From NCBI GenBank assembly GCA_945885475.1, contig CAMCYR010000013.1:1-62233 (forward strand): a stretch of 62,233 bases of DNA. Reading direction: 5' to 3'. The DNA is from Chitinophaga pinensis (GTDB taxonomy: Bacteria; Bacteroidota; Bacteroidia; 2-12-FULL-35-15). This document shows positions 19,640-31,043 of this stretch, piece by piece. Within the stretch, counting starts at the first letter, position 1, and each line of letters starts with the position of its first letter. The notes under the pieces were generated by a model. That model was not told the origin of the DNA. It did not search any database and saw only the letters and a program-made list of their open reading frames with translations. The position numbers and the translations under genes were made by a program.

Positions 19640-20047
19640 ATGAAAAAACTACTTCTAACGCTATGCGCAATCGCTGGATTCACATTTGTGAACGGACAAA
19701 CAATTTCTTCTTCAAGTCACTCAACAACAGGTTATGTTAAAAGTGACGGAACAATTGAAAACTCGAGCCACAGCACAAAAGGATATATTAAAAGTAATGG
19801 TACCATTGAGAACTCAAGCCACAGCACAATCGGGTACATCAAAGATAACGGGACAATTGAAAACTCAAGTCACTCCACAGTAGGATATGTAAAAGACAAT
19901 GGAACCGTTGAAAACAGCAGCCACAGCACGATTGGATACGTAAAAAGTGACGGAACTGTTGAAAATAGAAGTCACAGCACGATTGGACACGCAAGCGGAG
20001 TTAAAAAAGAATGGGCAGCAGTTGTCTTCTTTTTCTTTGAATTCTAA
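19640..20047 (+). CDS. Secreted protein of six 17-residue repeats
   Basis: 135 residues. A signal peptide (1-20, ending VNGQ) is followed by five near-identical 17-residue units at 25-109 with the pattern S-S-H-S-T-x-G-Y-[VI]-K-x-x-G-T-[VI]-E-N, then a sixth decayed unit (RSHSTIGHASG) and the end KKEWAAVVFFFFEF. Five repeats plus a closing strand and an aromatic C-terminus resemble the small proteins I recall being named '5-fold beta-flower', but I could not verify this. The gene is flanked by terminators on both sides, so it is monocistronic. Function unknown. Confidence 0.85.
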   Translation: MKKLLLTLCAIAGFTFVNGQTISSSSHSTTGYVKSDGTIENSSHSTKGYIKSNGTIENSSHSTIGYIKDNGTIENSSHSTVGYVKDNGTVENSSHSTIGYVKSDGTVENRSHSTIGHASGVKKEWAAVVFFFFEF

Positions 20048-25193: not shown

Positions 25194-27173
25194 ATGAACA
25201 TGCAAAAAAAACGACTTCTTATTTATGTCCTCTTGATCCTTTCCGGATTACTTGGCGCCTACCTATTTTTACGGACTAAACCCAATCAATCTGCAAACAA
25301 TACTGTTGTTACAGCAATTAAAAAAGACTCCATCATCTATATTTCCTTGTTAAATGAGTTTTTTGACTTTGAAAACAATGATGGTGCATTTGTCTCAGCG
25401 GACGTTTTTTCTTCCGGAAAAAAAAGCTGCCAACTTTCTCCGCAAATAGAATACGGTATTTCAGTCACAAAAATAATGAAGGACATTCCTTCCTTCCAAA
25501 ACTTAAAAAGCCTAACTGTTTCATTTAACTGCCAGTTCAGAAAAGATAATCCTGATGCACTCTATGTTTTATCGATTGATGATGGAAGTGGTAAAAACAT
25601 TCATTGGGACGGACAACCAATTGTTTTTAAATCTAAAAATGAATGGTCAACCTCCTCTATTAACTTCGAAATTGCTCCTGAGTTTTTGAATGAAACAAAT
25701 AAAATTTCTGTCTACCCTTGGAACAGAAACAAAAAAGATTTTTTTATTGATGATGTTTCAATCGATTATAAAGGCATAACTGTATTCAATAGCACAGAAA
25801 AATCCGTTGCGGCAGAAAAATCGAACCTTTACTTTGATTTTGAAACAGACACCCCTGTTTCCGGATCCGAGAATATAAAGGTAACCAAAGCGCATTCGGG
25901 GACAAGAGCGTTTGACTTAAGCGGTGGCAAAGAATGTGGTCCTTCTGTAACTAAAAAATTGAGCGAACTCGGAAACCCTTTTCCAAAAAAAATAAGTATG
26001 AGCGCATGGATATATCCACTGAGCGACAACCCGAATTTAGTGCTTACAGGCTCCGTTGTTAATTCAAAAAACGAAACAGTTTATTGGGAAGGCAAGAGTA
26101 CTGAAAATAAATCGTTCCAAAAAAACCAGTGGACAAAAATAAACGCATCCTACTTTCTTCCTGTCGAAAAATTAGCGGCCGATGATATATTGGGTGCTGG
26201 GATATGGAACAAGGGCAAAACAGATGTCATTATTGATGATCTTGAAATCGTATATGGGGAAAGTGCGGACAGAAGAGGACGCGCCTCCACAATTGATCCA
26301 AAAGCTATCTATGAAAAAAGATTTATTGGAGAGAAAAATAAACCTCCTTTTCAAGCGATCATTTTTGATAAACAAGAAATTAATAATAGTGACCACTTTT
26401 CTATAACACCAAAACACAAACCCAATGGAACAGAAAACTTTTCACCTAATGATGTCTATCTCGTTGGCGATTTTTTTCCTGATAAATACAATTTAGAAGA
26501 GATCATTTGCTTCAAAGAAAAAAGCCGTGGCATGTTTTCCTATTCTCCGGAATCGAAACAATTTAACAAGCTTTGGGAAAATACGGTAGCAGCTGATCCT
26601 CTTTGGAACTCAAACAACAACGCCTATCCCGGAGACTTTAATTCAGATGGAAAGACAGATATTTTGTTGGTTGACAAAAAAACAAACATGTGGAAAATCC
26701 TTAATTTCAATGGAAAAGAATGGATCCTTGTTTCAGAAGGAAAAGATCCTAAAAAGGAATGGATCAGCAACAAGAAAACGAATGTAGCAGGAATTATAAC
26801 CCCTGATGATAAACTTTTTCCCGGAAATTATACGGAAGAGAAACAAACGTTTTTAAAATTAAATACCGAGTGGCGTTTCGACCTCAAGTTGCTTGAAAAA
26901 GAAGACTCCGAATATCTGATCATCGGGAATGTCGATTTTAAAGGTTATCCCAAAGATTACAATCCGAAGTATTTTGAATTTGTTAAATTGATAACAGGAA
27001 AATTTCTGTCCAAAGAAAAAACGTCTGTACTGATTGTCATGTGTAACTGTGCGGATGCGGACTTTAGTGGGAAAAAATGTGATCAAATCGAGAACTTGCC
27101 TTTTTTGCCGAATAGTGTTCAACTGTACAACATTTCACCACAGATGACACAGATTTTCACAGATAAATATTAA
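25194..27173 (+). CDS. Membrane-anchored surface protein with two beta-sandwich-like domains and an FG-GAP-like segment
   Basis: 659 residues. A single N-terminal membrane helix (about 8-26) anchors it. Two related domains follow (about 55-195 and 205-355): both run from a 'F(D)FE...' start, through a W-rich middle, to 'I-x-V-Y-P-W-N-R-N-K-K' or 'G-A-G-I-W-N-K-G-K-T' and 'FFIDDVSIDY' / 'VIIDDLEIVY', like carbohydrate-binding modules. Near 480-520 is YPGDFNSDGKTDILLVD, an FG-GAP/VCBS-type Ca-binding repeat. The last 13 residues (ISPQMTQIFTDKY) are encoded by a copy of the dispersed repeat at 27136. It likely binds glycan at the surface. Confidence 0.75.
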   Translation: MNMQKKRLLIYVLLILSGLLGAYLFLRTKPNQSANNTVVTAIKKDSIIYISLLNEFFDFENNDGAFVSADVFSSGKKSCQLSPQIEYGISVTKIMKDIPSFQNLKSLTVSFNCQFRKDNPDALYVLSIDDGSGKNIHWDGQPIVFKSKNEWSTSSINFEIAPEFLNETNKISVYPWNRNKKDFFIDDVSIDYKGITVFNSTEKSVAAEKSNLYFDFETDTPVSGSENIKVTKAHSGTRAFDLSGGKECGPSVTKKLSELGNPFPKKISMSAWIYPLSDNPNLVLTGSVVNSKNETVYWEGKSTENKSFQKNQWTKINASYFLPVEKLAADDILGAGIWNKGKTDVIIDDLEIVYGESADRRGRASTIDPKAIYEKRFIGEKNKPPFQAIIFDKQEINNSDHFSITPKHKPNGTENFSPNDVYLVGDFFPDKYNLEEIICFKEKSRGMFSYSPESKQFNKLWENTVAADPLWNSNNNAYPGDFNSDGKTDILLVDKKTNMWKILNFNGKEWILVSEGKDPKKEWISNKKTNVAGIITPDDKLFPGNYTEEKQTFLKLNTEWRFDLKLLEKEDSEYLIIGNVDFKGYPKDYNPKYFEFVKLITGKFLSKEKTSVLIVMCNCADADFSGKKCDQIENLPFLPNSVQLYNISPQMTQIFTDKY

Positions 27174-27175
27174 AT
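27136..27175 (+). repeat. Solo copy of the CACCACAGAT repeat, overlapping a gene end
   Basis: The 40 bases from CACCACAGAT match the start of the repeat unit at 27619 with few differences. They encode the end of the preceding protein, including its stop codon, and lie just before the GxxExxY gene, so this gene has a repeat copy on each side. Confidence 0.75.
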
Positions 27176-27185
27176 TTTTAAAATC

Positions 27186-27611
27186 ATGGATATTACTTTT
27201 GAAGAATACAATATTGTAGAAGAGGGTGTCTCGGAATATAAAACCCCGAATGGAATTACTTATGGAATTATCGGTTGCGCATTCAGAGTTCACAAAGCCT
27301 TAGGGCCGGGATTATTGGAATCTTCTTATGAATCGTGTTTGAATTATGAATTAACTGAAGCGGGCTTCTTCGTAGAACGACAAAAAGAGCTTGAGTTGAT
27401 TTATAACAAAGTAAAAATGGATGTTGGTTATAGATTAGATTTGGTAGTCAACAAGTCGGTAATAATTGAAATCAAATCTGTAGCGGCGCTTGCGCCTATT
27501 CATAAAGCACAAGTCTTAACATATTTAAAATTATCAAAAATAAAATTAGGACTGCTAATAAACTTTAACACTGTAGATTTGAAAGAAGGAATTCAGAGAT
27601 TAATAATGTAA
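27186..27611 (+). CDS. GxxExxY protein (PD-(D/E)XK nuclease-like)
   Basis: 141 residues. The name motif is present as G-L-L-E-S-S-Y in HKALGPGLLESSYESCL (about 39-55). Later RLDLVVNKSVIIEIKSV (about 84-100) has the D-x(n)-E-x-K layout of PD-(D/E)XK nucleases. Such genes are widespread orphans in environmental Bacteroidota and their function is unknown. The last codons and stop (ATTAATAATGTAA) recur in each downstream repeat unit, so the gene and array form one element. It is inserted between two genes of a glycan locus. Confidence 0.88.
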   Translation: MDITFEEYNIVEEGVSEYKTPNGITYGIIGCAFRVHKALGPGLLESSYESCLNYELTEAGFFVERQKELELIYNKVKMDVGYRLDLVVNKSVIIEIKSVAALAPIHKAQVLTYLKLSKIKLGLLINFNTVDLKEGIQRLIM

Positions 27612-27618
27612 GATAATT

Positions 27619-28449
27619 CACCACAGATTACGCAGATTAACACAGATAAGAATTAAATGAAAAACAATAACCACATATATAAAATAAACAATCTGTGCCT
27701 ATCTGTGCAATCTGTGGTAAAAATAAATATATTGGATTTTACAATTAATAATGTAAAAGAAGACACCACAGATTACGCAGATAAACACAGATAAAATTAA
27801 ATGAAAAAACATTTTTATATAGATATTACAAAAAACAATCTGTGCCTATCTGTGCAATCTGTGGTAAAAATAAATTTATTATATTTTACAATTAATAATG
27901 TAAGATAATTCACCACAGATTACGCAGATTAACACAGATAGAAATTAAATGAAAAACAATAACCACATATATACAAAAAACAATCTGTGCAAATCTGTGC
28001 AATCTGTGGTAAAAAATCAATTTATTGGATTTTACAATTAATAATGTAAAAGAAGACACCACAGATTACGCAGATTAACACAGATAGAAATTAAATGAAA
28101 AAACCTTTTTATATAGATATTACAAAAAACAATCTGTGCAAATCTATGGTAAAAATAAATTTATTATATTTTACAATTAATTATGTAATATAATTCACCA
28201 CAGATTACGCAGATTAACACAGATAAGAATTAAATGAAAAACAATAACCACATATATAAAATAAACAATCTGTGCCTATCTGTGAAATCTGTGGTAAAAA
28301 TAAATATATTGGTTTTTACAATTAATAATGTAAAAAAAGACACCACAGATTACTCAGATTAACACAGATAAGAATTAAATGAAAAAACCTTTTTATATAG
28401 ATATTACAAAAAACAATCTGTGCAAATCTGTGCAATCTGTGGTAAAAAT
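27619..28449 (+). repeat. Array of six about 145-bp units in alternating A/B order
   Basis: Units begin (at CACCACAGATTAC) at 27619, 27764, 27911, 28057, 28196 and 28341. Odd units (A) share AATAACCACATATAT; even units (B) share TTTTTATATAGATATTAC, so the array is three copies of an A+B dimer of about 290 bp. Within each unit the left end ACCACAGATT pairs with the right end AATCTGTGGT, and inner CAGAT/ATCTG strings also pair, giving a large hairpin. The fourth unit has lost about 8 bases near its right arm. This fills the 767 bases between the GxxExxY gene and the GH16-like gene. Confidence 0.92.
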
Positions 28450-30403: not shown

Positions 30404-30715
30404 ATGAAACAAAAAGTTCAAAACAAAGAAATGCTTTTCGCATTAATAGAAAGCAATCGAATGCGAATACGCGATTATGGCGTGCGCACAATCGGGCTTT
30501 TTGGTTCATTTGCTAGGAACGAACAAAACGACCATAGTGATGTTGATTTGTTAGTTGACTTTGAGACAGATAAAGAAACCTACCGCAATTTTATTAGTCT
30601 TGCTTACTATATGGAAGAGTTGCTGGGGAGAAAAGTAGAAGTTGTTACACGCAATGGCCTTAGTCCATATATTGGTCCTCGAATTTTAAAGGAGGTGCAA
30701 AATGTCCCACTCTAA
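30404..30715 (+). CDS. mntA: MntA-type nucleotidyltransferase antitoxin
   Basis: 103 residues. The minimal nucleotidyltransferase signature G34-S-F-A-R(x)7-D46-V-D48 is intact. In characterised MntA/HepT pairs this enzyme adds AMP to a tyrosine of HepT and so neutralises it. The gene overlaps hepT by 14 bases, the usual arrangement. A good promoter lies directly at its start. It sits between the GH16-like gene and a broken MBOAT gene, consistent with arrival as a small mobile module. Confidence 0.9.
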   Translation: MKQKVQNKEMLFALIESNRMRIRDYGVRTIGLFGSFARNEQNDHSDVDLLVDFETDKETYRNFISLAYYMEELLGRKVEVVTRNGLSPYIGPRILKEVQNVPL

Positions 30716-31043
30716 CTCAGAGCTTTTAAATCATATTCTAGACGAGATTCGTTTTGTGTTGCATGCTACTAATGCAAAAACGAAAGATGAACTTATTGAG
30801 AATGAAATTCTTAAACGTGCCGTAATACGAAGCCTTGAAATAATTGGAGAGGCTAGCAAAAAAATAAACCCCGATTTTAAACTTCTGAATCCACATATTG
30901 ACTGGCGTGGAATGGCTGGAACCAGGGACAAACTCATTCATGATTATTTTGGAGTAAACTACAATATCGTTTGGGATATTATTGAAAACGAACTGCCTTC
31001 GTTAAACGATTTCATTGGCGATTTGCTTTTAGGGGAAAAATAA
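30702..31043 (+). CDS. hepT: HepT-type HEPN ribonuclease toxin (DUF86)
   Basis: 113 residues, all helical. The HEPN catalytic motif R-x4-H-x-Y is present as R75-DKLI-H80-D-Y82 (GTRDKLIHDYFGV). Arg and His form the RNase site and Tyr82 is the residue expected to be AMPylated by MntA. A strong Shine-Dalgarno (GGAGG at 30691-30695, 6 bases before the ATG) stands inside the mntA end, unusual for this phylum. The MBOAT fragment starts 3 bases after its stop. Confidence 0.9.
   Translation: MSHSNSELLNHILDEIRFVLHATNAKTKDELIENEILKRAVIRSLEIIGEASKKINPDFKLLNPHIDWRGMAGTRDKLIHDYFGVNYNIVWDIIENELPSLNDFIGDLLLGEK

Follow-up and report, generated by a model that had tools for sequence, protein, structure and literature searches.

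Background

The closest described counterparts of the system reported here are the RAYT/REP elements. The RAYT gene lies between two inverted repeats, gene and repeats co-evolve, and repeat abundance follows the gene (PMC2817692). REPINs are hairpin-forming repeat doublets (PMC3116915). This study concerns a GxxExxY (PDDEXK_3) gene and its flanking iterons in a 62,233-nt stretch of Chitinophaga pinensis DNA (contig CAMCYR010000013.1 of GCA_945885475.1, positions 1 to 62,233; the whole stretch is called the window), which is contig C13 of a 3.06-Mb source genome labelled G000. It is near certain that the GxxExxY gene and its cognate iteron arms form one unit. We propose that the encoded nuclease recognizes these iterons, maintains them, and spreads them, in the manner of a REPtron with an unrelated enzyme, and we assign this reading a probability of about 0.6.

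The features of a REPtron that were found at GxxExxY loci are inverted flanking repeats, co-evolution of repeat and protein, and correlation of cognate repeats with the gene. The likeness to RAYT/TnpA-REP systems extends to a gene between two inverted palindromic repeats, to co-evolution, to repeat abundance that follows the gene, and to hairpin doublets (PMC2817692, PMC3116915, PMC8266576). However, the protein of a REPtron is of the HUH/Y1 (IS200/IS605-related) type, and the GxxExxY protein is not; it is a PD-(D/E)XK enzyme, whereas RAYT is an HUH/tyrosine enzyme. The arms of GxxExxY loci are three-word iterons with 8–11 nt spacing and, as read, show CRCRRAK words, whereas REPs are short palindromes after GTAG. 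Several GxxExxY systems also occur per genome, and archaea are included. Because the defining enzyme differs, the GxxExxY system is not filed as a RAYT/REP member. No described repeat-mobilizing system that we found shares its enzyme class and repeat design, although its working logic has a known analogue in RAYT/REP.

Other known elements share part of this design. As with miniature inverted-repeat transposable elements (MITEs), short gene-less hairpins carrying the ends of the gene-bearing element are dispersed between genes and stand at polymorphic sites; the gene-bearing partner of a GxxExxY hairpin, however, does not code for any known transposase, and target duplications were not seen. 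Between the arms stands a gene for PDDEXK_3 and not for the DDE transposase of an insertion sequence or DDE transposon. A free-standing homing endonuclease gene is likewise a small intergenic nuclease gene with empty sites in relatives and possible recombinational spread, but the GxxExxY element has inverted iterons and gene-less copies, and no long recognition site shared with the empty sites was identified. In the available text of the GxxExxY, PDDEXK_3/PF13366, iteron-string, and topical literature, no report of the gene–repeat association was seen; most subscription papers and all bioRxiv preprints lay outside this coverage, and absence in print is unproven.

GxxExxY gene and inverted iteron arms

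The product of the window gene matched PF13366 (E 6.5e-42, 143 bits against a curated cut-off of 22) and TIGR04256 (E 1.4e-43, 147.9 bits against 35). Both profiles thus pass their curated cut-offs and place it in the GxxExxY/PDDEXK_3 family, and its closest named relatives are from Bacteroidota. The left arm is the inverted partner of the right arms downstream, with 81–88% complementarity. Each window arm carries three CACAGAT-like iterons with start spacings of 9 and 10 nt, except for the shortened right arm of unit B2. The earlier note had placed a solo repeat copy before the gene at 27136; a repeat is present there, as a single arm and not as a whole unit.

The same arrangement was observed beyond the window. 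Genome G000 contains four PDDEXK_3 matches, each with its own short periodic flanking words by eye. A scan of GTDB contigs gave 80 more GxxExxY loci, and most of them showed inverted iterated words on both sides by eye. The arm-bearing loci, also judged by eye, came from records named Bacteroidota, Cyanobacteria, Proteobacteria, Acidobacteria, Verrucomicrobia, Chloroflexi, Dojkabacteria, and archaea. GxxExxY arms in general are inverted and consist of three words of about 7 nt at 8–11 nt spacing. Within the sampled genomes of the window's phylum, 75 of 148 contained GxxExxY genes, and relatives were also found on 6 plasmid records.

The arms were quantified by an inverted-flank score, for which the best match of one 250-bp flank to the other in inverted orientation was taken. 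The test used 76 of the 80 loci, the rest having short or N-rich flanks. The median score was 19.75 for GxxExxY loci, compared with 10.5 both for 429 other open reading frames (ORFs) in these loci and for 380 shuffles. A score of at least 16 was reached by 51 of the 76 loci but by only 17 of the 429 control ORFs and 3 of the 380 shuffles. Identical 6-mers recurred at 8, 9, and 10 nt in 181, 137, and 120 cases, where the expectation, taken from DNA farther away in these loci, was 14.7, 26.2, and 10.4.

Upstream flanks were also compared with their own and with foreign downstream flanks, for 198 usable of 205 distinct GxxExxY genes. The median score was 20.75 with the own downstream flank and 11.0 with those of other loci. 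The own flank was the best or tied best of 198 for 70 genes and among the top five for 131. Outside Bacteroidota, 17 of 28 genes stood at or above the 95% level of cross pairs; the remaining eleven fell below it, some with one-sided arms by eye. The arms lie close to the gene, with median distances of 23.5 nt from the profile start and 10.5 nt from the stop. The linkage of gene and repeat that the earlier note read from one locus is general over GxxExxY loci of bacteria and archaea.

The fourth GxxExxY copy of G000 (L024, contig C44, 1465–1871) is broken into two ORFs, with a TGA within the profile match. Its flanks contain TTACGAAT-type words.

Co-variation of arms and protein

Co-variation and arm mismatches were analyzed at 156 loci with an own score of at least 16, and words were typed at 112 of these. 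Among 11,212 between-genus pairs, arm similarity was correlated with protein identity (Spearman 0.26), a value reached by none of 1000 permutations. At the 73 loci with paralogs, the arms had a mean similarity of 0.44 to those of the closest protein from a different genus, compared with 0.24 to those of paralogs of the same genome, and the arms were nearer to those of the foreign closest protein at 61 of the 73 loci (p 3e-11). Because the arms resemble those of the closest foreign protein over those of paralogs, the repeat belongs to the protein and not to the host. Word and spacing are particular to the protein lineage, so that a single genome contains several systems side by side.

Along the protein tree the core word is frequently altered, with 22 changes at word position 5 among the typed loci. 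Mutual information and sister pairs suggested residues 25 and 26 as candidates for reading this position. Glu26 was accompanied by G in 23 of 23 cases, Lys26 by A in 20 of 21, and Thr25 by G in 46 of 47. The sister-pair p value of residue 26 was 0.0025, uncorrected over more than 100 columns, and L71 and E64 have lower p values. These patterns suggest residues 25 and 26 as a candidate part of the iteron-word readout.

Mismatches between the paired arms comprised 330 of G·T type and 380 of A·C type, with no excess of RNA wobble. The reading of the gene-flanking arms as RNA hairpins is thus unsupported. It follows that RNA pairing is not what is kept, which points to recognition as DNA. A search of the window against Rfam returned a single tRNA elsewhere and no RNA family at the GxxExxY locus.

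Dispersed gene-less hairpins

Genome G000 also carries hairpins that contain the window's word at dispersed places, one of them 3' of a stop codon at C25:20900. Two three-iteron patterns were searched in the 148 phylum genomes. They were present in 45 of the 75 genomes with a GxxExxY gene, compared with 6 of the 73 without, and occurred 433 and 12 times, respectively. When labels were shuffled within families, the mean was 38.6 against the 45 observed (p 0.00025). With the largest gene-poor family removed, the counts were 45 of 72 and 5 of 46. Reversed control patterns were about zero in most genomes. Outside Bacteroidota, where only gene-holding genomes were covered and a few reversed-control counts were nonzero, the pattern was found in 25 of 27 GxxExxY-holding genomes; a Methanosarcinales genome of 2.0 Mb had 55 places, and an Acidobacteria genome had 105.

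The position of these copies relative to the gene was counted for 235 merged pattern places among the matches listed, in genomes with a listed gene. The earlier note had reasoned that a tie between gene and repeat would fail if repeats lay mostly far from GxxExxY genes and did not co-vary with them. The distance part holds for the dispersed copies, as 198 of the 235 listed places were more than 3 kb away or on another contig; yet 30 were within 600 bp of a listed gene, against 0.3 expected, and the repeat sequence does co-vary with the protein. In nine genomes, selected for a pattern place near a listed gene, 64 of 95 far places agreed in both word and spacing with one of that genome's gene-borne arms, against 16 expected (0 of 5000 permutations).

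A hairpin-locus query within the window's genus gave, among the matches listed, at least 41 in G000, at least 33 in G154, at least 32 in G158, and at least 17 in the next genome, in counts that take in flank matches and the window's own array. G000, G154, and G158 are the three genomes with a window-type gene joined to the flanking DNA of this site. With gene-less hairpins scattered in this way and the gene standing between mirror-image arms, the whole looks like an unrecognized mobile repeat system.

Two genomes showed other arrangements. In the Acidobacteria genome G214 (L297 and listed places), many hairpins had the opposite polarity, with CTCTGTG first and CACAGAG after, unlike GxxExxY arms. 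In G045, five iteron places cluster at C46:166438–166986 in a genome without a PDDEXK_3 match; the cluster may be a remnant, may point to a gene that was missed, or may be an exception.

Orthologous sites in related genomes

Orthologous sites were compared among genomes of the window's genus, with site classes assigned by eye. The C3 site, between two amidohydrolase-like genes (named by eye), was followed in 24 genomes. It held the gene, intact or broken, in 14, remnants in 2, and none in 7, and 1 was unclassed. In a small sample, arm pairs were poorer at the 4 loci with a broken gene than at the 10 with an intact one (p 0.01). The own arm pair of the C3 orthologs scored above the mean of others' (p 0.005).

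At the window site, compared in 12 genomes, the gene was present in G000 and G158. Gene-less hairpins of a similar general kind were found in G150, G153, and G152, unrelated sequence in G162, G163, and G151, and nothing hairpin-like in G171, G161, G160, and G167. At the C25 hairpin site (15 genomes), stop and start codons nearly touch in G151, G187, G155, G161, and G159. G000 and G153 carry a window-type hairpin there; G164, G150, and G158 carry different hairpins, G162 has just one arm, and G165, G149, G148, and G163 have other sequence. Because relatives hold different hairpins at this place, the C25 gap was apparently filled independently by different hairpin families. Empty sites, for which the earlier note had suggested a search, are thus present in relatives, together with hairpin-only versions of the same sites.

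The gap in G163 equivalent to C25 (L262) has a 0.9-kb insert with an IS200/Y1 transposase-like ORF (by eye) and other repeats; this gap may be a hotspot.

Predicted Cas4/RecB-like nuclease

Among 198 aligned GxxExxY proteins, the conservation values were 1.00 for D85, K97, and N126, 0.99 for E95, 0.96 for Q109, and 0.95 for Y113. The D/E/K triad was also invariant in a second alignment of 75 sequences. The AlphaFold2 model of the window protein had a mean predicted local distance difference test score (pLDDT) of 92. Its best solved fold match was SSO0001 (4ic1), which we take to be a Cas4 protein (Z 9.8; root-mean-square deviation 3.1 over 98 residues; Foldseek E 9.9e-4). Other fold matches, including archaeal Hjc and restriction enzymes, were below Z 8; they may reflect the common fold alone and were not used.

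At the sequence level the similarity to Cas4 was weak. The best E values were 0.0007 (PADLOC) and 0.005 (Pfam), and the Pfam Cas_Cas4 score of 17.4 bits is below the cut-off of 22.7. A search of solved structures by sequence gave no significant relative (best E 0.55). Pfam found no Y1_Tnp in the window protein; it found PDDEXK_3, and the fold is restriction-endonuclease-like. The likeness to the Cas4/RecB family consists of the fold, the D...ExK residues, and the QxxxY motif, which, with its D-ExK-QxxxY definition, we assume to be characteristic of that family. The GxxExxY protein differs in being very short, in being bordered by its own repeats, and in its marginal sequence relationship. It is predicted, from the model and the alignments, to be a Cas4/RecB-like nuclease with an intact catalytic triad.

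Proposed mechanism

The small Cas4/RecB-like GxxExxY nuclease would recognize, as DNA, the iterons of the inverted arms on either side of the gene that encodes it. A nick or cut would be made by the nuclease in the iteron palindrome, perhaps while this is extruded as a hairpin or cruciform in replication. The repeat would then be restored, converted, tandemly expanded, or transplanted by repair or strand transfer that draws on another copy. The arm–gene–arm element and its shorter gene-less arm–loop–arm derivatives would be carried into short intergenic gaps and kept alive by the nuclease.

The steps of this proposal are held with different confidence. Judged from the sequence comparisons, the GxxExxY protein very probably recognizes the arms, and it probably drives their maintenance or spread. 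A further-reaching form is tentative and given somewhat less than an even chance: GxxExxY may be the sole enzyme of an unrecognized class of mobile elements in bacteria and archaea, moving its own element and, in trans, the gene-less hairpins through a protein–DNA code with residues 25 and 26 as part of the readout. The association and the co-variation were computed; we infer binding, cutting, the repair route, and the nuclease as the driver of spread. The earlier note suggested a gene that travels with the repeat or acts on it. This suggestion is supported by the linkage, the co-variation, and the empty and hairpin-only sites; an action of the protein on the repeat would follow from the mechanism.

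With this proposal, GxxExxY genes, which have been without a known role so far, gain a candidate substrate, and it would explain a large number of hairpins dispersed in bacterial and archaeal genomes. The many natural pairs of nuclease and cognate word are a source for reading the recognition code. If movement is indeed driven by the nuclease, these would be mobile repeats whose driver belongs to none of the transposase or recombinase classes known so far.

Alternative explanations

Several observations weigh against a nuclease that spreads its own iterons. The inverted-flank score was below 14 in 16 of the 76 loci, and 14 was reached by 49 of the 429 controls. Both patterns, which cover only some word types, were absent in 30 of the 75 gene-bearing genomes, and a pattern was present in the six gene-less genomes counted above. 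The C3 element is mostly inherited, as shown by the gene in 14 of the 24 genomes, so that jumps are rare, and the own arm pair was the best in only 5 of 14 C3 orthologs. Inspection of two sites by eye revealed no target-site duplication; the flanks compared there were mostly 70–90% identical. The independent-pairs tree test of the proposed specificity residues lacks power, with 2 supported pairs for residue 26, although the supported pairs agree with the residue–word counts given above. Furthermore, within gene-bearing genomes the repeats were commoner where Y1 was present (42 of 62 compared with 3 of 13, p 0.004).

This last point bears on another enzyme as the mover, such as an HUH transposase of Y1/RAYT/IS200 type, with GxxExxY as a passenger or as a host nuclease by which palindromes are trimmed or resolved wherever such repeats abound. 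A link between REP hairpins and Y1 enzymes has been described (PMC2817692). Y1_Tnp was found in 106 of the 148 genomes and was associated with the repeats (46 of 106 compared with 5 of 42, p 2e-4). However, Y1 had no effect where the GxxExxY gene was absent (4 of 44 compared with 2 of 29), and a Y1 transposase as the sole driver is unsupported on this count. Among Y1-bearing genomes the effect of the GxxExxY gene was strong (42 of 62 compared with 4 of 44, p 7e-10). The arm sequence tracks the GxxExxY protein, and the arms border its gene. Three genomes, not all of them closed, had a GxxExxY gene and repeats with no Y1 match. A Y1-type mover is therefore considered unlikely, although the association within gene-bearing genomes suggests that a second enzyme may help.

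The iterons might instead be an operator through which GxxExxY controls its own gene, with the dispersed copies as regulatory sites or terminators and mobility as incidental. The short median distances between arms and gene are consistent with this, as are the inspected hairpins at gene ends, but an operator would not account for nearly invariant catalytic residues, for arms that are two-sided and inverted, or for hairpins that appear and disappear at sites. Selection as RNA hairpins is further opposed by the lack of an RNA wobble signal in the gene-flanking arms, there is no Rfam family at the locus, and the operator reading is judged improbable. A defence role, in which the repeats mark self or bait invaders and a Cas4-like nuclease destroys foreign DNA, would agree with the weak Cas4 similarity. 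No relative was found among 50,697 phage records at E 1e-5, and the dispersed gene-less copies would be left unexplained, which makes this role very improbable. Terminator-like hairpins are widespread in bacteria, and GxxExxY genes could merely be intergenic neighbors of common hairpins. Such an artefact of chance or composition is ruled out by control ORFs, shuffles, and cross-pairs that score far lower, by reversed patterns that are about zero in most genomes, and by the protein co-variation, and it retains next to no probability. The preferred reading remains a nuclease that recognizes, maintains, and spreads its cognate iterons.

Tandem array and neighboring features

The coordinates of the gene, the arms, and the downstream array are given in Table 1.

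Table 1. Positions of the GxxExxY gene, its left arm, and the hairpin units of the tandem array in the window.
Feature	Coordinates	Strand	Details
Left arm	27133–27164	+	three CACAGAT iterons, starts 9 and 10 nt apart; pattern place 27139
GxxExxY/PDDEXK_3 gene	27186–27611	+	141 aa; PD-(D/E)XK residues D85, E95, K97; Q109xxxY113; motif G42xxE45xxY48
Tandem array, six hairpin units, A/B alternation	27599–28449	+	dimer about 285–292 bp; boundaries repeat the gene's last codons and stop
Hairpin unit A1	27617–27721	+	left arm 27617–27647, right arm 27691–27721
Hairpin unit B1	27765–27865	+	arms 27765–27792, 27838–27865
Hairpin unit A2	27909–28013	+	arms 27909–27939, 27983–28013
Hairpin unit B2	28058–28150	+	left arm 28058–28085; shortened right arm about 28131–28150
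Hairpin unit A3	28194–28298	+	arms 28194–28224, 28268–28298
Hairpin unit B3	28342–28443	+	arms 28342–28369, 28416–28443; outer right end of the element, holds the downstream ORF start

Tandem Repeats Finder reported a period of 145 repeated 5.9 times (82% match) and a period of 285 repeated 2.9 times (92% match, score 1435). Therefore, the array consists of six A/B units that grew dimer-wise, as the earlier note had described. The A units are 145, 146, and 145 nt long and the B units 147, 139, and 121 nt. At the start of each unit the last codons of the gene are repeated; left arm, loop, and right arm follow. The recurrence of these codons with the stop, also described before, was found as ATTAATAATGTAA at the gene end and at five unit boundaries, one of them with one mismatch; six copies compare with 0.38 expected, and none of 100 shuffles reached six. 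Every unit was predicted to fold into a hairpin, at -17.5 to -33.4 kcal/mol, in agreement with the large hairpins proposed earlier.

The related genome G158 has the gene and arms at the same site without the array, and the array is therefore a secondary feature. The earlier view of gene and array as one element holds for the gene and its arms; the A/B array is a young, local expansion and not part of the core, which is the arm–gene–arm element of a general family.

The ORF upstream of the element passes through the left arm and stops just beyond it, at 27173. The downstream ORF as called begins at 28379, within the last unit, and has an in-frame GTG at 28439 (by eye). The ends of the window element thus provide the upstream stop (27173) and the downstream start codons (28379/28439). 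At other loci the outer end TTAACC includes TAA, and TTTAACC was found in 15 of 80 flanks against 3.0 expected.

Two further features were noted in the window. The next gene after the element is closely followed by a nucleotidyltransferase (PF01909) and HepT-like (PF01934) pair at 30404–31043, likely an MNT/HepT toxin–antitoxin module. At 19640–20047, a small secreted-looking ORF contains a 51-bp repeat (period 51, 5.2 copies) that encodes ENSSHSTxGYIK-like units.

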